Positions 2,921 to 10,489 of a stretch of 10,489 nucleotides of DNA are shown in pieces (positions within the stretch are counted from its first letter, which is position 1; every line of letters begins with the position of its first letter). Under the pieces are notes generated by a model. That model worked only from the letters and a program-made list of their open reading frames with translations, was not told the DNA's origin and searched no databases. The position numbers and the translations under genes were made by a program. The stretch is from JALXCG01 sp026991065 [NCBI: Gemmatimonadota bacterium] (GTDB taxonomy: Bacteria > GCA-2686955): positions 1 through 10,489 of the forward strand of contig JALXCG010000830.1 of NCBI GenBank assembly GCA_026991065.1, in the 5' to 3' direction.

Positions 2921-3577
2921 TCAACCACAGCCGCCACCGGCCACCGTGATCACCTTGTTCAGTTTCACCTTCTTCTCAAACTCCTGCTCCGGAATGTGCA
3001 GGTGATGAGGATCGGGCCAGGCGATCTCGGTGCGATCGCCCAGGGCGACCGGGAAGATGTAGCGCAACCCTTCCCCCCGGGGTTCGTCGGTCGCCTGCAC
3101 CAGCGGCTGCACCGGCACCGGGCGCGGCTCCGAATACTCGCCGAACTCCTTGAGCCAGCGATTGATCCCACCGGCGAGAATGTAGGCATTGCTGCTCTGC
3201 ACCGCCTTCAGAATCCGCCACCCCTGCGTCGCGCGCTCCTCGCCATTGGAAACCAGCACGACCACCGCCTCGGGATTCAGCGCGGCACCGACCTCGCCGG
3301 CGAGCTGATCGAAGGTGACGCGCCGCGCCTCCTGAAAGTGGAACATGTTGTAATCTGCTTCGTCGCGCAGATCCAAAACCACCAGGCGGACCTGATTGTT
3401 GTGCATCAGATCCAGCATCTCCGCCGGCTCGATCTGCACCTCACGAGCTTCCAGGGCGCGCTCCAGTTCAGCGGTTTTGCGCACCACCTTGTCGGCGGCG
3501 TCCGGCTGCGGAACTACCACCAGAGCGAGGCTGGCAAGGGCCAGCACAGTGGCTCCAACAGTTTTGAAGGTTGACAT
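2921..3577 (-). CDS. Exported rhodanese-like protein with Ser at the catalytic Cys position and a GGGCG C-terminus
   Basis: This 218-residue protein begins with a Sec-type signal peptide (hydrophobic residues ~8-23, likely cleavage after PDA near 27), so it should be periplasmic. A single rhodanese domain follows: the VVLDLRDEADYNMFHF strand/loop (66-81), the active-site loop (107-117) and the YILAGGINRWLKE closing element (132-144). In active rhodaneses the loop reads C-x-x-G-x-R; here it is S110-N-G-E-E-R115, so the sulfur-accepting cysteine is missing while the arginine remains. The only cysteine in the whole protein is Cys217, in a C-terminal AGGGCG tail that resembles the GGCGG arm of SoxY. 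A His-rich stretch (PDPHHLHIP, 188-196) precedes the tail. The start has a strong AGGAGG eight bases upstream. It is the last gene of the sulfur/cytochrome operon. Sulfurtransferase activity of the usual kind is unlikely; a sulfur-carrier or binding role is my inference. Confidence 0.85.
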   Translation of the reverse strand: MSTFKTVGATVLALASLALVVVPQPDAADKVVRKTAELERALEAREVQIEPAEMLDLMHNNQVRLVVLDLRDEADYNMFHFQEARRVTFDQLAGEVGAALNPEAVVVLVSNGEERATQGWRILKAVQSSNAYILAGGINRWLKEFGEYSEPRPVPVQPLVQATDEPRGEGLRYIFPVALGDRTEIAWPDPHHLHIPEQEFEKKVKLNKVITVAGGGCG

Positions 3578-3585
3578 GGTGAGTT

Positions 3586-3591
3586 CCTCCT
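3586..3591 (-). promoter_or_regulatory. Ribosome binding site AGGAGG overlapping the upstream stop codon
   Basis: On the minus strand AGGAGG lies eight bases before the rhodanese-like ATG and shares bases with the TAG stop (3592-3590) of the preceding YeeE/YedE gene. It fixes the start of the rhodanese-like gene and suggests that ribosomes finishing one gene re-initiate on the next. Confidence 0.65.
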
Positions 3592-4180
3592 AATCCCGGG
3601 CCTTGTCACGGTTGCCCCGCGCGGCTTCGTAGGTATCCGCTCCCCAGAACGTAAAAAGAGCGACCGCGGTCACCAAAACCGCTGTCTCCCCTTTGGAGAT
3701 GCCGAGCCACTGGTCCAATGTGTAGGTGCCACGGAATCCCGCTTGCTGGAAGAACTCCCAGAACTTCGGCACCACCTCGCCAAACGCCACGATCCCGACA
3801 AAGAGCCCGGCGATGAAGAAGAGCCCGTCGAGTTTCAGCGTGGAGGTTGCGACCAGGCTGGTGCCGGGGCAATATCCTCCCACCACCATGCCGATGCCGA
3901 GCAGTGCCCCGCCGAGAATCCCCGATCCCAGGTAGGTTTCGTCGATCCAGACGCGGTCGAGATCGAGCCAGCCAAGGGCACTGGCCCAGAGGGTGAGCAG
4001 CATGGCGACAACAATCGCCGTGAACATCACCCGCACAACGGTGAGATCGGTCAGATAGAACTGACCGGCAATGCGCCGCGAATCACCGAACCCGCTACGC
4101 TCGAGAGCAACACCAAACCCCGCGCCAATCAGAACATTGACCAGGAAGAAGGCGACCCCGCTCCATTCAAAAGGTGCCAT
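3590..4180 (-). CDS. YeeE/YedE (TsuA-type) sulfur transport half-protein, GGYCPGTS type
   Basis: This 196-residue integral membrane protein has about five hydrophobic segments. The N-terminal signature GFGVALERSGFGDSRRIAGQ (21-40) and the re-entrant loop motif GGYCPGTS (101-108, Cys104) are typical of the YeeE/YedE family, whose characterised members import thiosulfate through conserved cysteines (E. coli TsuA, and the Spirochaeta thermophila structure). Full-length TsuA is roughly twice this size and internally repeated, so this is one half. The start is supported by GAGGAG about seven bases upstream, and the gap to the previous gene is 12 bases. The preceding gene encodes another family member with a different motif, so the two probably form a heteromeric pore, as proposed for small PmpA/PmpB-type pairs. 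The cargo is likely thiosulfate or another small reduced-sulfur species, inferred from family and context. Confidence 0.87.
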   Translation of the reverse strand: MAPFEWSGVAFFLVNVLIGAGFGVALERSGFGDSRRIAGQFYLTDLTVVRVMFTAIVVAMLLTLWASALGWLDLDRVWIDETYLGSGILGGALLGIGMVVGGYCPGTSLVATSTLKLDGLFFIAGLFVGIVAFGEVVPKFWEFFQQAGFRGTYTLDQWLGISKGETAVLVTAVALFTFWGADTYEAARGNRDKARD

Positions 4181-4192
4181 GATTCCGACTCC

Positions 4193-4711
4193 TCAATTCC
4201 ACGCTTTGCGGAACAACCAGGCCACAGCGTAGCCCCCCGCGAATGCGGCCAACATGAATGCCCAGCTGCCCACCGCGAGAGTGGCGCCTCCGGTCAGCGC
4301 CTGCCCGGAGGTGCAGCCACGTGCGAGGCGCGCGCCGAAACCGGCAATGATGCCGCCGGCGAATGCCAGGGTCCAGCGCGCTCCGACCGAGATATTCGGC
4401 CCCCGCAGCGTCTCCACGCGACAACGCCCGGCCAGTTTTCCGGAAGTAAACCCACCCAAAGCCACCCCAACCAGCAGCGGAATGATCCAATGCTGCAGTG
4501 GCGCGGTCGAGTAGTGGCTGAGATAGGGAGAGAGGCGTACGTGATCGGGAATCACGACATTCATTACGGCTGCGGCGATCCGGGCAAAACCGCCGGAAGC
4601 GCCCAACCCGTGGCCGGTCAAGAAAAACGCCGCGAAGAGGACAAATCCGAGAAAGGCGCCCCCCAGATAGGGATTCCAAAGGCGATTCTCGGGCGAAGAA
4701 ACGGGTCTCAT
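4193..4711 (-). CDS. YeeE/YedE (TsuA-type) sulfur transport half-protein, GCTSGQ type
   Basis: This 172-residue membrane protein has hydrophobic segments at about 15-32, 75-88, 112-128 and 148-166. Family features are LTGHGLGASGGFARIA (31-46) and the loop RGCTSGQALTGGA (131-143), where Cys133 matches the conserved pore cysteine of one half of TsuA; Cys97 is a second candidate. I start at ATG 4711, which follows GGAGG seven bases upstream and overlaps the cytochrome b stop by four bases (ATGA). The frame stays open further upstream, but that part lies inside the cytochrome b gene and reads as basic out-of-frame sequence. It is coupled to the neighbouring half-protein and probably works with it in the inner membrane. 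The placement after a quinol-linked cytochrome b suggests that sulfur uptake and reduction are expressed together. Confidence 0.87.
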   Translation of the reverse strand: MRPVSSPENRLWNPYLGGAFLGFVLFAAFFLTGHGLGASGGFARIAAAVMNVVIPDHVRLSPYLSHYSTAPLQHWIIPLLVGVALGGFTSGKLAGRCRVETLRGPNISVGARWTLAFAGGIIAGFGARLARGCTSGQALTGGATLAVGSWAFMLAAFAGGYAVAWLFRKAWN

Positions 4712-5358
4712 GCTTTCCCTCCATCCTGGCCCTCTTCGAGATGGCCGTCGTGGTCCGGAATGGTACCTACGATCATGGCCCGGATGTTGGCCAAAGGCGT
4801 GTCGCCGGTAGTGGTCAAGTAGATGTGCATCACGGTGAAGCTGAGGAAAAACCAGGCCGCCATCGCATGAATCGGCACCAAATAGGTGAGTCCGCCGATC
4901 GGCTCCAGCAGTTGCGGCCACCGTCCGCCCGCCCACATCGCCACCCCGGTCACAATTTGCACCGGCAGCAGAACATTGAGAATGGCGAGATAGGTGATCT
5001 TCTGCAGCGGGTTGAGCTTGTTGTCAGGACCATGCTTCATCGGGTGCGGTTCGCCGCGAAATATGCCGCTCAGGTAGTACTTGGCCTGGGCGAAAGCCAA
5101 GCTCATGAACTCCTTCTCGGCCGGGATGTACTGGCGAATAAAGCCGCTGGTCATGAAGTAGAAGAACCCGAGGATCGCATTCAGCAGCAGCAGCGCACCG
5201 GCCGCATTGTGAATCAGCACGGCGGTTGAGAATCCAAAAACGTGCAGAGCTTGCGGCGCATGAACCTCGGCACCGGTCAGCAACAGAACCCCAATGGTGA
5301 TGGCTTGGATCCAGTGCCACAGACGCTCGTTCGCGGTATACATCAAGATCTGTTTCAC
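4708..5358 (-). CDS. Membrane cytochrome b (thiosulfate reductase / b561-like), quinol-linked
   Basis: This 216-residue protein with four predicted membrane helices resembles the cytochrome b subunits of thiosulfate reductase, formate dehydrogenase and NiFe hydrogenase. Likely haem-b ligands are His15 (ERLWHWIQA, helix 1), His50 (LIHNAAG, helix 2), His164 (PIHAMAAW) and His178 (VMHIYL) on the last helix pair, the usual two-haem arrangement. Loop 85-115 is polar with His105 and His109, and the C-terminus PDHDGHLEEG is acidic and His-bearing. The start is GTG 5358, set by GGAGGT six bases upstream; the upstream open frame belongs to the shadow of the preceding gene. GTG overlaps that gene's TGA by four bases. 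Its inferred role is to oxidise (mena)quinol and pass electrons to the seven-haem protein encoded just before it. Whether it reduces or oxidises quinol in vivo cannot be read from sequence. Confidence 0.86.
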   Translation of the reverse strand: MKQILMYTANERLWHWIQAITIGVLLLTGAEVHAPQALHVFGFSTAVLIHNAAGALLLLNAILGFFYFMTSGFIRQYIPAEKEFMSLAFAQAKYYLSGIFRGEPHPMKHGPDNKLNPLQKITYLAILNVLLPVQIVTGVAMWAGGRWPQLLEPIGGLTYLVPIHAMAAWFFLSFTVMHIYLTTTGDTPLANIRAMIVGTIPDHDGHLEEGQDGGKA

Positions 5359-7400
5359 GACCGCACCTCCGTTTCCTTCTTGGAATCGGCGAAACTGGCG
5401 AGAAAGACGCGTGTGCCGCCATGAATCAGAACCCCGATCACGACCAGGATCAGTGACCAGCGGCCGATGACATCTACCCAAGGGAAGCTCTCGTAGCCCA
5501 GCAGGTAGATTCCCGCCCTGGTGGCATTCGGTTGATAGAGCAAGCGTCCGTCGTCGCTCAGCAGCAGATCTCCCGCCAAGCGCACCGTGGCATCCTGAAC
5601 CATCACCGGCATAACGCCGCCCGGAACATAATCCGCCAGCACCGTACTCCGGCTGAAGCGGGAGTCGCCGCCGTGGCAGACCCTGCAATCACGCAGCGCC
5701 GCTACTCCCGGGGCCACGTCATGGTGAACACCGTAGGGTTGAATCTCACCGCGAATCTCAGCATCGGCGACGCCCGCCGATTGCAGCGCCTGCTGTATCG
5801 CGGCCACTTTGGCGTCGCTGTCCAGACGCAACTCTTCGATCGTCACGGAACCATCGTGATTCTCATCCAGCGCCTGAACAATGCTGCGCCGATAACTGCC
5901 GTCGGCGGCAAAAAGCGCTTGTTGCAGTTGCGGCAGAGGCACGGGGCGGCCGCGCTGCCGATCGAGCCAATACCAAGTGGTGACCAGATTCTGCGGCGCC
6001 AAACGCGTACTGCCATCCAACTCGTTGCGCTGTAGCAGCACCGGCTGGTAACCAGCGACCAAAGTGCGTGGATCGTGTGGATCGCCCTTCACCCCGCGGT
6101 AGTTCACAAGTGCCTCCCGCTCCGGACTGAGCAGAGTCCAGTCGGTCTGCCGGCGAGCCGCCGCGTAGAGCCGCGGAACGTGACACGCCTCGCAGCGCAT
6201 GCTGCTCATGTGACGCTCGACCGACGGCAGCCAGGTGTGGGTTCCCTCCAACCGGTGACAGTCGACGCAGTCGCGTCCACTGCCATCCAGGTCGCGCGCA
6301 ACCGTCGCCTGCGAAGAGTGCCCCTTGCCGAAATCGTGGCTCGGAGTCTTGAGAAACTCGCCGATCGCGAGCCGCCCGGTGGGGTGTTTCAGGTGGGTGG
6401 GCTGAGTCTGCCGCGACTCGGCAAAAAAGGCGGGATTGTTGAGCGACCCGTGACAGTCGCTGCAAACCAGCAGACGCTCCGCATGAACATCCCAGGGGCG
6501 ACTCAACTCCTCCTTGCCCGCGACGTTCATTCCGGAGCGCCGAATGCGCGTCCCGGCAATGATCTCGCCGGTGGTCTCGGTCATCGGCCGGTCGACCGAA
6601 GGCGGCAGGAAGAAGGGCTCATCCGGGCCATCCTGCACCGCGCCGTGACAGATTCCGCAGTTGTGGCTGGCCGGCTTGCGCAGCGGCAGCAGCGTGGCGG
6701 GAACCTTGCCGTCGGCATCGAAATGATCCGCGGCATACTGCCACTGCCCCGCTTCTCGGGTTACCAGACCGGTTTCCGCCAAGGTCGCGGTCGCCGCCCA
6801 GGCAAAACGCCCCGCCCGCAGCTCCGCGCTTCGCTCATCGACCGCCGGATCCGGCAGATGGCAGAGGAAGCAGTTCATCTCCACCACCCCGGAACTCTGC
6901 CAATCCCACGGTTCGGAAGTGCCTGGCTCGACCCCACGGACATGAGTCAAAGGACTCGTGGATGCGTTGCTCGGCAGCTCCATCAGCGACCGGCCATCCG
7001 CGCTTTGCACGGCAAAACCGCCACCCACGTGATGGGTGCCGAAGCGCCGCAGCCAGTCTGCCAGCCCGAGATCGAACTGCTCCGGATCGAAGCGCTCGTA
7101 GGTAAGCGGATCGAAGCGTTCAAGCAGCCCGGGGCCGTGGTCGAAACCGCGTCCACTGGGAGTGAACTTCTCTTCGTTGGTGCCCAGCCACACATGGTAG
7201 CTGTGCCCGGCGATGTAACCGGTGTCGTGGCAAGCGCCGCAAGTGCGCATGGTCGAAACCGGCCGCCCGGTTGTCAAGGCCGCGCCACCATCAATGTCGA
7301 TCAGTTCCACCGGTGGATGCAGAGCTGACACCGAGGCAAGAGCCGGGGCGGGCAGCAGCATCAGACCCAAGCAACCGCTGAATGCACGCAGCAACTTCAT
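5355..7400 (-). CDS. Seven-haem c-type cytochrome with EF-hand motif and C-terminal membrane anchor
   Basis: This 681-residue exported protein has a signal peptide (1-22, ending PALA-S). Seven CxxCH haem sites are visible: 54-58 (CGACH), 177-181 (CFLCH), 248-252 (CGICH), 313-317 (CSDCH), 378-382 (CVDCH), 403-407 (CEACH) and 572-576 (CRVCH). Between the sixth and seventh lies a canonical calcium-type EF-hand loop, D512-x-N-x-D-G-x-V-x-x-x-E523. A single membrane helix near 645-668 (GRWSLILVVIGVLIHGG) anchors the C-terminus and carries His660. The start is ATG 7400, after a GGGGGGAAG purine run and overlapping the octahaem stop by four bases. It probably relays electrons from cytochrome b to the octahaem reductase on the periplasmic side. 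Together with cytochrome b it recalls Geobacter CbcL-like designs, where multihaem c and diheme b parts are joined. No family symbol is justified. Confidence 0.87.
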   Translation of the reverse strand: MKLLRAFSGCLGLMLLPAPALASVSALHPPVELIDIDGGAALTTGRPVSTMRTCGACHDTGYIAGHSYHVWLGTNEEKFTPSGRGFDHGPGLLERFDPLTYERFDPEQFDLGLADWLRRFGTHHVGGGFAVQSADGRSLMELPSNASTSPLTHVRGVEPGTSEPWDWQSSGVVEMNCFLCHLPDPAVDERSAELRAGRFAWAATATLAETGLVTREAGQWQYAADHFDADGKVPATLLPLRKPASHNCGICHGAVQDGPDEPFFLPPSVDRPMTETTGEIIAGTRIRRSGMNVAGKEELSRPWDVHAERLLVCSDCHGSLNNPAFFAESRQTQPTHLKHPTGRLAIGEFLKTPSHDFGKGHSSQATVARDLDGSGRDCVDCHRLEGTHTWLPSVERHMSSMRCEACHVPRLYAAARRQTDWTLLSPEREALVNYRGVKGDPHDPRTLVAGYQPVLLQRNELDGSTRLAPQNLVTTWYWLDRQRGRPVPLPQLQQALFAADGSYRRSIVQALDENHDGSVTIEELRLDSDAKVAAIQQALQSAGVADAEIRGEIQPYGVHHDVAPGVAALRDCRVCHGGDSRFSRSTVLADYVPGGVMPVMVQDATVRLAGDLLLSDDGRLLYQPNATRAGIYLLGYESFPWVDVIGRWSLILVVIGVLIHGGTRVFLASFADSKKETEVRS
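5365..5370 (-). promoter_or_regulatory. Ribosome binding site GGAGGT setting the GTG start of cytochrome b
   Basis: GGAGGT on the minus strand ends six bases before the GTG at 5358. No ATG lies nearby upstream in frame. The next in-frame ATG (15 bases further in) would remove conserved N-terminal residues and be badly spaced, so this site decides the start. Confidence 0.65.
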
Positions 7401-8863
7401 TGTGCTTCCCCCCCTTCCGAGTGCAGAAGATCCAGCTGCCGGCGGCCTCCGCGATCGCGCGGATCGCCGGGATAGCCCAGTGCCGCCCAATCCATCCGCC
7501 CATGCTCGCCATGACAGTCGGCGCACTGCAGCGCTTCCTCTTTGGTGGCTACCATGTGCGATTGCGGCCAATACATCTCGGTCCGGGCAAAGCCATATTC
7601 GCCGCTGTATTTCAAACCGGTGATCGGTTCCGCCTGGCGGCAGGCCCGGTCCCAGTCAAACTCAGTCCAGTAGCCACCCGGGCCGACCGTATTGGGCACC
7701 AGGAAATACTTATACTTCTTGTCGTAAATCTGGTTGCCCCGATGCACCTTGAACGGCCAGATCTTGGCCGTGGGATCGGCAATGTCGCCACGGGGCGAAT
7801 TCAGCGCAGTCACTCCTTCCGGGTCGATCTTGTCGCCCTTCAGGTAGCGGTTCGCGAGGCCGTTGTACCAGTAGTATTCGGGCACTACGTTGCGCTCGTA
7901 GCGGAAACGCCCCTTGATCTTCATGTAGACGTGGTGATCGGTAATCGGCAGATCCTGCCCCGCCTCCGACCAGTCCCAGTGCATCTTGGTGGCTTCGCGA
8001 ACGGCAAACTCGGGAATGTGGCACGTCTGGCAAGCCACCGCGGCAACGTGCGCGTTCAACCGTTCGTTCTCATGGGGTGCTTCAACGTGACAGTCGGTGC
8101 AACCGATACCGGCGACATCGTCCACACTGACCGACATTGAGCGGCCCGGGATCTTGTGATTCTCGGCATGGTGGCACTCAACACAGGAAAAATCCAAGCG
8201 CCCCATGTGGACATCGATCTCTTCACTGGGGAAAAACATCGTCTGGTCGAGGTCACCATGCTTGACCGCATCGCCACCGCCACCGTTGAAATGGCAGTAG
8301 CCACAATTGGTGCGCTCCGGCAGCCCCACGCTCTTGGCCGCCGCCAGCAGATCGACATCCGCCGGGGGATTTCCCGCCCGGCCCTTGCGGTAGCCGCCAC
8401 TCTGGTCATGGCAGACCAGACAATCGATGTGCGTCGGGTCGTCGAAATCGAAATTCTGATCATGCCAATCATATCCGGCATGACAGGTGGTGCACTTCGG
8501 CCAGTTGCTCTCCACGCTGATACAGAAGTTGTTCAGCAGGTTCTTTTTGCCAATGGCGACCGGCTGGTCATGCCCCGGCACTTGGGCGGGGGTTCCATGC
8601 CACTGCCAGTGGGCGGTGTGGAGAAACTCCTCTCCCTGCTCGGCGTGGCATTCAAGACAGGCGCGCGTAACCGCGGGACCATCGACGAACTCCAAACCGG
8701 CAAAGAACCTTGAGTGGTCCACGTGCGCGACGTGGCTCGGAAGGCGCGAAAAGGGATCATCCCGCCGCTCTTGCGCAAAGCCTTGAAAGCGGACCAACGC
8801 AGTGATCGCACCCAATACGCTCAACACAACGGCGACCAGAAGGAGCGAGTGCTTTGCACCCAT
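7397..8863 (-). CDS. otr: Octahaem c-type cytochrome, tetrathionate reductase (OTR) family
   Basis: This 488-residue protein has an N-terminal signal or signal anchor (5-25) and eight CxxCH sites: 69-73, 124-128, 148-152, 187-191, 227-231, 255-259, 278-282 and 447-451. The count, spacing and the segments NNFCISVESNW, NCGYCHFNGGGGDAVKHGDL and MYWPQSHMVA match the octahaem tetrathionate reductase family known from Shewanella oneidensis. In that enzyme a lysine replaces the distal histidine at the active haem and a cysteine lies nearby. Here Lys201 (VKHGDL) and the non-haem Cys114 (NNFC) are the likely counterparts, with similar spacing. The Shewanella enzyme reduces tetrathionate and also nitrite and hydroxylamine in vitro, so the physiological substrate remains open. 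It acts in the periplasm. It is the first gene of a six-gene operon. The start ATG 8863 is preceded by GAGGTGA at good spacing. Confidence 0.92.
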   Translation of the reverse strand: MGAKHSLLLVAVVLSVLGAITALVRFQGFAQERRDDPFSRLPSHVAHVDHSRFFAGLEFVDGPAVTRACLECHAEQGEEFLHTAHWQWHGTPAQVPGHDQPVAIGKKNLLNNFCISVESNWPKCTTCHAGYDWHDQNFDFDDPTHIDCLVCHDQSGGYRKGRAGNPPADVDLLAAAKSVGLPERTNCGYCHFNGGGGDAVKHGDLDQTMFFPSEEIDVHMGRLDFSCVECHHAENHKIPGRSMSVSVDDVAGIGCTDCHVEAPHENERLNAHVAAVACQTCHIPEFAVREATKMHWDWSEAGQDLPITDHHVYMKIKGRFRYERNVVPEYYWYNGLANRYLKGDKIDPEGVTALNSPRGDIADPTAKIWPFKVHRGNQIYDKKYKYFLVPNTVGPGGYWTEFDWDRACRQAEPITGLKYSGEYGFARTEMYWPQSHMVATKEEALQCADCHGEHGRMDWAALGYPGDPRDRGGRRQLDLLHSEGGEAQ

Positions 8864-9179: not shown

Positions 9180-9313
9180 CCCGGCGCCCCGGAGTAACAT
9201 TCGCAGGCATGGAATCTCCCGACGCTATGACGCATCGCGGCATCAGCTACACTCTTCCACTGCACGATTATACACAAGCTACACAATCCGCTTGAGCGAC
9301 ACCGAGGCAGAGA

Positions 9314-9946
9314 ATGTTTCACTTGAACAGCAACAGTTCTTTTCGCAGCAGCGACGCGGCAGATGAAAAATCCCGCCGCTTTTTCAATCGGGTGGCTTTT
9401 GCCTTCCCGCTTATCGAGCGTGCCCTCCTGCCCGGCTACCGCCAGGCGCTCGCCGCCACCCGGCTGGATACTGCGCTGACGGTCCTTGACCTGGGCACTG
9501 GAACCGGGATCCTGGCCGCGGCTTTTGCTGAGCGCGGTCACGTGGTGAAGGGGCTGGATTTCGCTCAACGGCTCCTGCAGCGTGCCGTTCGCCGTCACCC
9601 AACGGTTGCGTTCGAACTCTTTAACCTGGCCGACCTGGATTCCCTGCCAACCAACTCCTGGGACGTGGTCTCGATGGGCTATCTCCTCCACGGCCTTGAC
9701 CGCGACTTCCGCCAGGCGGTCCTCCGCGAAGCCGCGCGCATCGCCAACTCCCATGTGCTGATCTTTGACTACGGCGAACCGGGCAACGCGTTGGTGCGTT
9801 TCATTGAATGGATCGAGGGTCCCCACTATCCAGAGTTTCTTCGGGACTCGCGGGCCATCGATTTCGCCAGAGCCGGGCTCACCCTGCGCCACCATCGACC
9901 GATGCGCGGTTCCGGCGCCATGTGGCTCTGTGTGCCCGACTCCTGA
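9314..9946 (+). CDS. Class I SAM-dependent methyltransferase
   Basis: This 210-residue soluble protein has the class I SAM-binding motif VLDLGTGTGILA (57-68), the acidic residue of the second strand in GLDFA (Asp82), a motif II-like WDVVSMGYLLHGLD (116-129) and the VLIFDYGEP strand (148-156) of motif III. The N-terminal FFNRVAFAFPLIERALLPGYRQAL pattern resembles UbiE- and YcgJ-type methyltransferases that act on quinones or small molecules, but nothing identifies the substrate. The length is normal for a single-domain enzyme and there is no export signal. The start ATG 9314 is preceded by GAGG about nine bases upstream. It is convergent with the protoporphyrinogen oxidase gene, whose stop lies 20 bases away. 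A role in porphyrin or quinone metabolism is possible from context but not shown. Confidence 0.83.
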   Translation: MFHLNSNSSFRSSDAADEKSRRFFNRVAFAFPLIERALLPGYRQALAATRLDTALTVLDLGTGTGILAAAFAERGHVVKGLDFAQRLLQRAVRRHPTVAFELFNLADLDSLPTNSWDVVSMGYLLHGLDRDFRQAVLREAARIANSHVLIFDYGEPGNALVRFIEWIEGPHYPEFLRDSRAIDFARAGLTLRHHRPMRGSGAMWLCVPDS

Positions 9947-9965
9947 ACCCGCCCCGCGCAACCAA

Positions 9966-10489
9966 TCAGGGTGAAGAAAAGGTTCCACCGAGAGCAGCCT
10001 CGACCGCCCTTCCAACCGCCTCCGCGGCCGCGGTGCACTCATTAATGCCGATGCCGCGAAACGCATTGCCGACCAGGTGGACACCGGGTGGCAAGGCCTC
10101 TTCCACCGCCGCCACGCGGGCCAGATGGCCCAACTCATATTGCGGAATCGCTTCGGGCCAACGGCTGATCCGGGTGTATTGCGGGGTGCCGCAGACGCCC
10201 ATCAGTGCGCTCAACTCCGCCAACACGGTGGCGATCAGTTCCGACTCCGGCAGCAGCGCCAGATCACCCTGCCGCCGCCCCCCAACCAGCGTGCGCAGCA
10301 ACACCTTGCCGCGGGGAGATCGCGCTCCGGGGAAGATCGCCGAAGTCCACAGCGAGCCCAGAATTGCGCGCCGCTCAATCCCCGGACAGAGGAATCCGAA
10401 TCCGGCGACCGGCCCCGGCAGATCCGCGCCGTCGAAGAGCATCTCCACCACCGCCACCGCCGCATAGGGGATGCGCCGGCAGGCCTCCA
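9966..10489 (-). CDS. hemY: Protoporphyrinogen oxidase, FAD-dependent HemY type (C-terminal part, truncated at window edge)
   Basis: About 173 C-terminal residues are visible and the frame stays open to the right edge, so the N-terminal FAD-binding half is missing. Recognisable family elements are IPYAAVAVV near the edge, GFGFLCPGIERRAILGSLW, the RWPEAIPQYELGH block and, close to the end, GVHLVGNAFRGIGINECTA, which is the second FAD-contact segment of HemY/PPOX flavoproteins. These enzymes oxidise protoporphyrinogen IX, or coproporphyrinogen III in the Gram-positive route, during haem synthesis. The gene is often labelled hemG in deltaproteobacteria, although E. coli HemG is unrelated. Haem supply fits a region coding for fifteen c-type haems and a cytochrome b, but the gene is on a separate transcription unit from the cytochromes. 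Confidence 0.88.
   Translation of the reverse strand, partial: EACRRIPYAAVAVVEMLFDGADLPGPVAGFGFLCPGIERRAILGSLWTSAIFPGARSPRGKVLLRTLVGGRRQGDLALLPESELIATVLAELSALMGVCGTPQYTRISRWPEAIPQYELGHLARVAAVEEALPPGVHLVGNAFRGIGINECTAAAEAVGRAVEAALGGTFSSP

Follow-up and report, generated by a model that had tools for sequence, protein, structure and literature searches.

A pseudo-rhodanese with a terminal cysteine or predicted selenocysteine, commonly fused to a YedE-type transporter half, is a candidate sulfur-carrier arm

SoxY is a sulfur carrier with a single cysteine in a C-terminal GGCGG arm, and Sud of Wolinella (1QXN) is a periplasmic polysulfide-sulfur transferase of the rhodanese fold, which partners a sulfur reductase and holds sulfane on the cysteine of its active-site loop. 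How periplasmic sulfur passes to a membrane transporter during anaerobic sulfur metabolism is little understood. According to the available portion of one study, SoxYZ-derived sulfur reaches the cytoplasm ‘by unknown means’, and the YeeE-like SoxT1A was then shown to be needed (PMC11582611). The same portion cites PmpAB-like proteins as importers of zero-valent sulfur and gives the PmpB cysteine as the equivalent of Cys91, and the PmpA cysteine as that of Cys293, of TsuA, in which both are indispensable (PMC11582611). Here, we describe a protein family that is a candidate part for this hand-over and that offers a single testable residue.

The window, by which we mean the whole stretch of 10,489 nucleotides that was analysed, carries a six-gene operon on its minus strand. 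The genes encode an octahaem tetrathionate-reductase-family cytochrome (OTR; 7397–8863), a multihaem cytochrome with seven CxxCH motifs and a likely signal peptide (5355–7400), a cytochrome b561-type membrane subunit that starts with GTG (PF01292; 4708–5358), the YedE halves A (4193–4711) and B (3590–4180), and a pseudo-rhodanese of 218 amino acids (2921–3577), referred to below as the arm protein. Like its Shewanella counterpart, the OTR of the window is a full member of the family, with eight CxxCH motifs, a TIGR04315 score of 569.4 bits (cut-off 375) and a match of 513 bits to the Shewanella structure 1SP3; unlike that enzyme, it is encoded together with a multihaem cytochrome, a b561 subunit, a YedE pair and an arm protein. 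In many relatives the b561 subunit and the multihaem cytochrome form a single frame. The two YedE halves resemble PmpB and PmpA and divide the PF04143 profile between them, half B covering positions 2–150 (the N-terminal half) and half A positions 174–309 (the C-terminal half; Pfam). Both pore cysteines known from TsuA are present: Cys104 of half B (codon tgc, 3869–3871), within GGYCPGTS, occupies the place of Cys91, as judged by eye from the sequence of TsuA, and Cys133 of half A (codon 4313–4315), within RGCTSGQ, lies in a region that aligns with that of Cys293. A phmmer search of half B against the PDB returned chance matches only. The plus strand carries genes for NnrS and for a geranylgeranyl-reductase-type FAD-dependent reductase (210–1517 and 1514–2881), which head towards the operon.

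A preliminary description of this DNA had read the arm protein as a rhodanese fold that has lost its catalytic cysteine and carries a SoxY-like tail. The fold is borne out by a Pfam match to PF00581 (44.8 bits; cut-off 22.2) and by an AlphaFold2 model (mean pLDDT 89.7), for which the top Foldseek matches were rhodanese structures. Translation of the frame likewise confirms that residue 110, at the place of the catalytic cysteine within VLVSNGEERA, is serine (codon tcc, 3248–3250), and that the sole cysteine is the penultimate residue, Cys217 (codon tgt, 2927–2929), within AGGGCG. An N-terminal signal or anchor precedes the rhodanese domain, which is followed by a linker of about 70 residues and the terminal GGGCG. 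The comparison that had been drawn with the C-x-x-G-x-R loop of rhodaneses stands for a loop position without cysteine and fails in its details: the loop reads S-N-G-E-E-R, with glycine at +2 rather than +3, and its arginine is not conserved, being alanine in 55 of the 82 aligned sequences (the window protein, that of locus L002 and those of the best 80 of 115 relatives). The likeness to SoxY holds for the glycine-rich tail with its single cysteine and extends to nothing beyond it, since Pfam gives Rhodanese alone and no SoxY domain, and NCBIfam gives only rhodanese-containing families, all below cut-off; nor did the Pfam and NCBIfam scans match SoxZ in any of the ten frames of the window that they covered.

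The suggestion that the tail might be free was approached through structure prediction. In the model of the window protein, pLDDT falls to about 60 for residues 211–218 and to below 50 for residues 161–164 of the linker; in that of a relative fused to its transporter half (L004), it lies below 50 for the last nine residues. These low values are consistent with a free tail without proving one. With the fused model, the best Foldseek matches were again rhodanese-domain structures, none of them below E 0.001, and its membrane part gave nothing clear.

An initial search of 145 genomes, including the window's own, gave three matches and thereby the first two relatives, both of which have a loop serine, end in GGCG and are fused behind a YedE half. 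Their alignment was then used in a genome_contigs scan with the patterns YIL[AE]GGIN and [VLT]LDLRDE[ASR]D, neither of which includes the loop or the tail. The scan yielded 115 confirmed relatives, of which the best 80 were kept and the 35 weaker ones set aside. An 82-row alignment was assembled from the window protein, L002 and L004–L083, with L003 omitted as an apparent duplicate of L056. Two further sets comprise the window and 74 of 76 listed frames (A3; without L037 and L062, from a list that contained neither UGA-tail rows nor L002) and 54 of 68 listed fused frames (A2). For the hairpin test and the tree described below, we removed the duplicates L098, L099, L101 and L102, along with rows whose ends were identical, leaving 98 rows and, with the window, 99 rows, respectively. 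A plasmid search with the arm protein had zero matches.

Across the window protein, L002 and the best 80 of 115 relatives, the loop position is serine in 79 and glycine in three, and is never cysteine, so that the family shares the fold of catalytic rhodaneses and lacks their active-site-loop cysteine (0/82). The tail position is cysteine in 78 and an in-frame UGA in the other four. No other column holds cysteine in more than nine of the 82 rows, and in the window protein and 45 of the 81 relatives counted the protein has one cysteine only. Homologues that keep the catalytic cysteine and lack the tail, which the preliminary description had named as evidence against its reading, thus did not appear in this alignment. 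Nor is the tail a chance feature, an idea that we rejected from this conservation and from control frames: of 569 further open frames in these loci that reach 150 amino acids or more, and that need not all be genes, 20 place a cysteine among their four final residues, and GGC does not occur in the final five residues of any. We also considered a sorting signal of the MYXO-CTERM type and rejected it, as the window protein has no C-terminal hydrophobic helix ahead of the motif (by eye).

In 75 of the 80 best relatives (of 115), the arm protein and YedE half B form a single frame, with an extra predicted helix ahead of the rhodanese domain, so that the docking with the transporter proposed in the preliminary description comes close to being literal. 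The pair shares with PmpA/PmpB and TsuA the two halves and the pore cysteines at the Cys91 and Cys293 places; it differs from them in that half B continues into this helix, the pseudo-rhodanese and a cysteine or predicted selenocysteine (Sec) arm, and in that some members have UGA at the Cys91 place. The arm is separate from half B in L011, L024, L051 and L070, as it is in the window, and L071 is cut by a contig end. OTR lies upstream in 57 of the same 80 loci; in the remaining 23, the sequence ahead of the arm frame is shorter than 3.6 kb. The OTR, multihaem/b561, YedE_A and YedE_B::arm genes remain together across phyla. In the class of G146, one of the species with a UGA tail, a sample of 396 genomes gave matches to the family in 69; the 30 loci read there comprise 25 with a cysteine tail and five with a UGA tail, four of them already known and L100 newly added. 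Members also occur in records whose title or classification gives Planctomycetota, Pseudomonadota, Actinomycetota, Myxococcota and KSB1.

We also surveyed loci outward from the neighbouring genes. With OTR as the query, 17 of 386 genomes matched at 1e-50 or better, and 18 regions were fetched. Eight of these combine OTR with a YedE pair (two, L137 and L141, come from the previously found genomes G100 and G046), and in all eight the arm ends in a cysteine tail (GGC, GGCG or GGLCS), with no cysteine seen in the loop, which was placed by eye. The predicted co-occurrence of a cysteine-less loop with a terminal cysteine beside OTR is therefore upheld, and a tail cysteine that is not conserved in this genomic context, the other finding that would have spoken against the preliminary description, was not encountered. 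In remoter OTR-linked members the loop residue, again placed by eye, is alanine, lysine, aspartate, glycine, serine or another, with no cysteine seen, which suggests that the rule is the loss of the cysteine and not the gain of a serine; Ser110 was accordingly rejected as a universal mark and holds within the core family only. The ten OTR regions that lack YedE, several of which are short contigs, contain no frame ending in GGC, indicating that OTR does not always need an arm. One short contig without YedE (L144, 4124–4450) encodes, just after OTR, a secreted-looking protein of 108 amino acids that ends in KGTKPGC.

A second survey, with YedE_B as the query, gave 46 matches in 40 of 386 genomes, from which 30 loci were read and six more regions fetched. 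We read twelve arms that adjoin YedE pairs outside OTR operons: those of L181, L187–L192 and L195–L198, the last four being loci in which unfused, short-frame YedE_B genes were checked for a separate arm, together with that of the second pair of L139. Eleven of the twelve have a cysteine within the last three residues, and no catalytic-loop cysteine was placed in any of the twelve, the loop of the most degenerate ones being difficult to place. The exception is L192, whose fused YedE_B (L167/L192) lacks the tail cysteine. In L198, L195 and L191 the partner is a molybdoenzyme whose best NCBIfam match is PhsA, below the curated cut-off; L198 has DsrC- and DsrE-family genes nearby, and in L188 no obvious partner enzyme was seen. 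The window's own genome contains such an operon on another contig (L181, 1–5254; G000:C538), with a ferredoxin-like frame (by eye), NrfD, YedE_A and a YedE_B fused to a degenerate rhodanese that ends in EGGC.

Three of these loci have further features. In L192, a protein combining a metallo-beta-lactamase with three rhodanese stretches and ending in KGAGC (6482–8530) adjoins the YedE_B fusion. In L191, a ferredoxin-type subunit and the YedE_B fusion share the end AAFEDSGC (6963–7664 and 9187–10383). The OTR operon and the second YedE-type operon of L139 (5426–10765 and 11006–16514) are adjacent, and both are Cys-tailed.

The UGA tails have the same form in different species. L008, L012, L025 and L030 read GGG-TGA-GGY-stop at the tail, L100 is the fifth such member, and three different stop codons follow the glycine among the five. 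As a control, 213 frames ending in TGA were taken from 81 loci; GGN comes next in 13 of them, and GGN followed by a stop in one. All five UGA members have a hairpin with a 7-bp stem, whose loop, with G at its first position, starts 19–20 nt past the UGA. By the usual rule, SECIS-like hairpins lie 16–37 nt after the UGA. None of 92 Cys members combines a stem of 6 bp or longer, five G-C pairs and a loop start at 17–21, and simple shuffles gave 30 such cases in 10,000, for a range of loop starts that was chosen after seeing the five UGA members. With any stem of at least 6 bp and a loop start anywhere at 16–37, 36 of the 92 Cys members qualify, 23 of them with G-C-rich stems downstream at 22–37. 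Folding-energy z-scores against shuffles for four of the five tail hairpin regions were -1.15, -5.20, -2.80 and -1.52; as two of the four are unexceptional, energy alone is not decisive and does not prove an element in L008 or L030.

SelA is above cut-off in all five genomes with UGA tails, and tRNA-Sec was found in four, by ARAGORN with anticodon UCA in three and as a strong RF01852 match in G537; the fifth, G147, has only near-cut-off tRNA-Sec matches, which ARAGORN calls as serine tRNAs. Of the four UGA-tail genomes tested for SelB, two exceed the cut-off, as do 60 of 80 genomes of the set (32/42 and 28/38); with Sec machinery this common, SelB does not single out the UGA-tail genomes. The five species form one clade (SH-aLRT 99) and the UGA tail is one change on the tree, so that the exchange at the tail is a single event. 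We predict from these sequences that the UGA tails are selenocysteine tails. A standard gene caller would stop at the UGA, and the key residue would thus be lost from the predicted protein.

UGA also occurs at the transporter pore. When the six window proteins were compared with 129 loci by tblastn, an in-frame TGA lay opposite a residue only at the pore cysteine or the tail cysteine, a count that covers the aligned stretches only, other stops being TAA or lying inside alignment gaps. A UGA at the cysteine of GG[FY]CPGTS is found in five members of the same operon type, L012, L025, L100, L026 and L017 (and in the duplicates L099 and L102), and amounts to three changes on the tree. Three species, those of L012, L025 and L100, have UGA at both pore and tail. 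The other two have it at the pore without a UGA tail; the genome of L026 has a tRNA-Sec, and none was found in that of L017. Unfused YedE_B proteins outside this operon also show it, with GGYUPGT, GGYUPGS and GGFUPGT in L168, L172 and L185, whose genomes (G049, G086 and G818) have tRNA-Sec. All five members of the OTR-operon type and all three unfused YedE_B genes can form a stem of 6 bp or more whose loop starts 17–20 nt after the pore UGA. We dropped this hairpin as evidence for its poor discrimination, since 21 of 85 Cys pores have a comparable stem at 17–21.

Selenocysteine is known in related families. The available parts of two selenoprotein compilations list Sec members of YeeE/YedE (GUxSG) and rhodanese forms 1–5, the latter with the motifs UxxS, UxxG, CxU and UxxxxU (PMC13188914, PMC9312934), and an OTR-family selenoprotein is tabulated in the first (PMC13188914). 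Among the table entries examined in these parts, neither a terminal GGUG arm nor GG[FY]UPGTS appears (PMC13188914, PMC9312934). The preliminary description knew of no family of this kind, and we likewise found no description of the arm in the literature as judged by titles and abstract openings, in which subscription journals are thinly covered. Together, this suggests that a cysteine or selenocysteine arm on a sulfur transporter has gone unrecognised, and that it may resemble SoxY or Sud in its working while belonging to neither. With SoxY it shares a single cysteine in a glycine-rich C-terminal arm, GGCGG itself in the remote relative L190, and the idea of a periplasmic carrier; it differs in its rhodanese fold, its fusion to a transporter half in most relatives and its predicted Sec variants. 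With Sud, whose structure is a weak profile match (E 0.0081), it shares the rhodanese fold and the apparent partnership with a respiratory sulfur enzyme, but the arm has no cysteine in the loop and has one at the C-terminus instead.

On balance, we think it probable that the protein is a membrane-anchored periplasmic Cys/Sec sulfur-carrier arm that works between a respiratory enzyme and the YedE pore. Four things lead us to this reading: the loss of the loop thiol, the retention of a terminal thiol or UGA, the union with a transporter half and the steady pairing with sulfur-linked enzymes. The N-terminal signal or anchor and the extra predicted helix of the fused relatives would place the arm in the periplasm. 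The tail thiol or selenol may then take up a sulfane or thiosulfonate group that is produced or consumed by a periplasmic respiratory enzyme, which would be OTR here and a PhsA-like molybdoenzyme in some sister operons, and the arm could swing over to the opening of the two-half YedE channel, where it would hand its sulfur to the pore cysteine for import, which we infer in preference to export. The multihaem cytochrome and cytochrome b561 would exchange electrons with the quinone pool, and the rhodanese domain would serve as a scaffold or docking module. In the available part of a study of lucinid symbionts, a divergent soxY with an altered arm motif lies beside otr (PMC11237559), so that OTR has an unrelated arm protein as its companion in that case. 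Against the carrier we count the tail of L192 without its cysteine and the ten OTR regions without YedE and, as regards its Sec exchange, the SelB result in two of four genomes, the lack of a tRNA-Sec call in G147, the unexceptional hairpin energies and the single event at the tail.

A more far-reaching version of the carrier reading, which we offer tentatively and would sooner doubt than expect to hold, is a covalent chalcogen relay from an enzyme-charged Cys/Sec arm to a pore Cys/Sec. Sulfane sulfur (or selenium) would then be conducted as a bound persulfide and not as a free ion, and in some Chloroflexota both stations would be selenocysteines on one polypeptide.

It seems to us rather unlikely that the tail is instead a thiol or selenol redox arm, one that forms mixed disulfides or trisulfides and supplies reducing power like DsrC or thioredoxin-like thiols while YedE moves free thiosulfate or polysulfide. 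Exchange between Sec and Cys is typical of redox-active thiols, b561 and the multihaem cytochrome provide electron carriers within the operon, and there is the DsrC-family gene near the sister operon of L198. However, the single cysteine of the window protein and of many relatives, without a second conserved cysteine column, leaves no obvious partner to resolve a disulfide, and a pure reductant would have little cause to be fused to half of a sulfur channel.

The lack of a second conserved cysteine also bears on the proposal that the tail is a ligand for a metal or metalloid (mercury, selenium or arsenic species) that the operon detoxifies or imports, which we hold to be improbable. YedE-type proteins are linked to selenium transport, and the available part of one compilation notes a possible metal-binding role for Sec in SaoB, SaoC (Cys-Cys-COOH) and UXX-star proteins (PMC13188914); yet the partners, OTR and PhsA-like enzymes, belong to sulfur-enzyme families, and homologues of DsrC and DsrE lie near one sister operon.

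More improbable still, in our estimation, is that OTR acts here on nitrite or hydroxylamine and that the arm and YedE pair serve an unrelated sulfur sensing or scavenging. OTR can reduce both compounds, according to the title of a reference in the available part of one paper (PMC11237559), a capacity that we count against the carrier reading, and the NnrS gene lies about 1.4 kb past the arm gene on the opposite strand; however, OTR, multihaem/b561, YedE_A and YedE_B::arm are kept together across phyla, and the same kind of arm is also paired with PhsA-like enzymes. That the UGA tails are plain nonsense mutations which remove the last two residues of a clade in which the tail cysteine is dispensable is barely credible, for although UGA is one base away from TGC and TGT, the tail is at the extreme end and the SelB and hairpin-energy results are each wanting in two of four cases, the glycine and stop are kept in five of five diverged species with three stop codons (against one of 213 controls), the hairpin keeps a fixed position, SelA is present in all five genomes and UGA also falls exactly on the pore cysteine in three of the five species.

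Upstream of the genes discussed here, the loci differ in one further respect. The window has no gene for an ArsR-type regulator; 30 loci have one (31 frames), mostly directly upstream of OTR, for example at 1548–1898 in L018 and at 2150–2515 in L068, and 30 of the 31 frames carry a cysteine at one N-terminal place.
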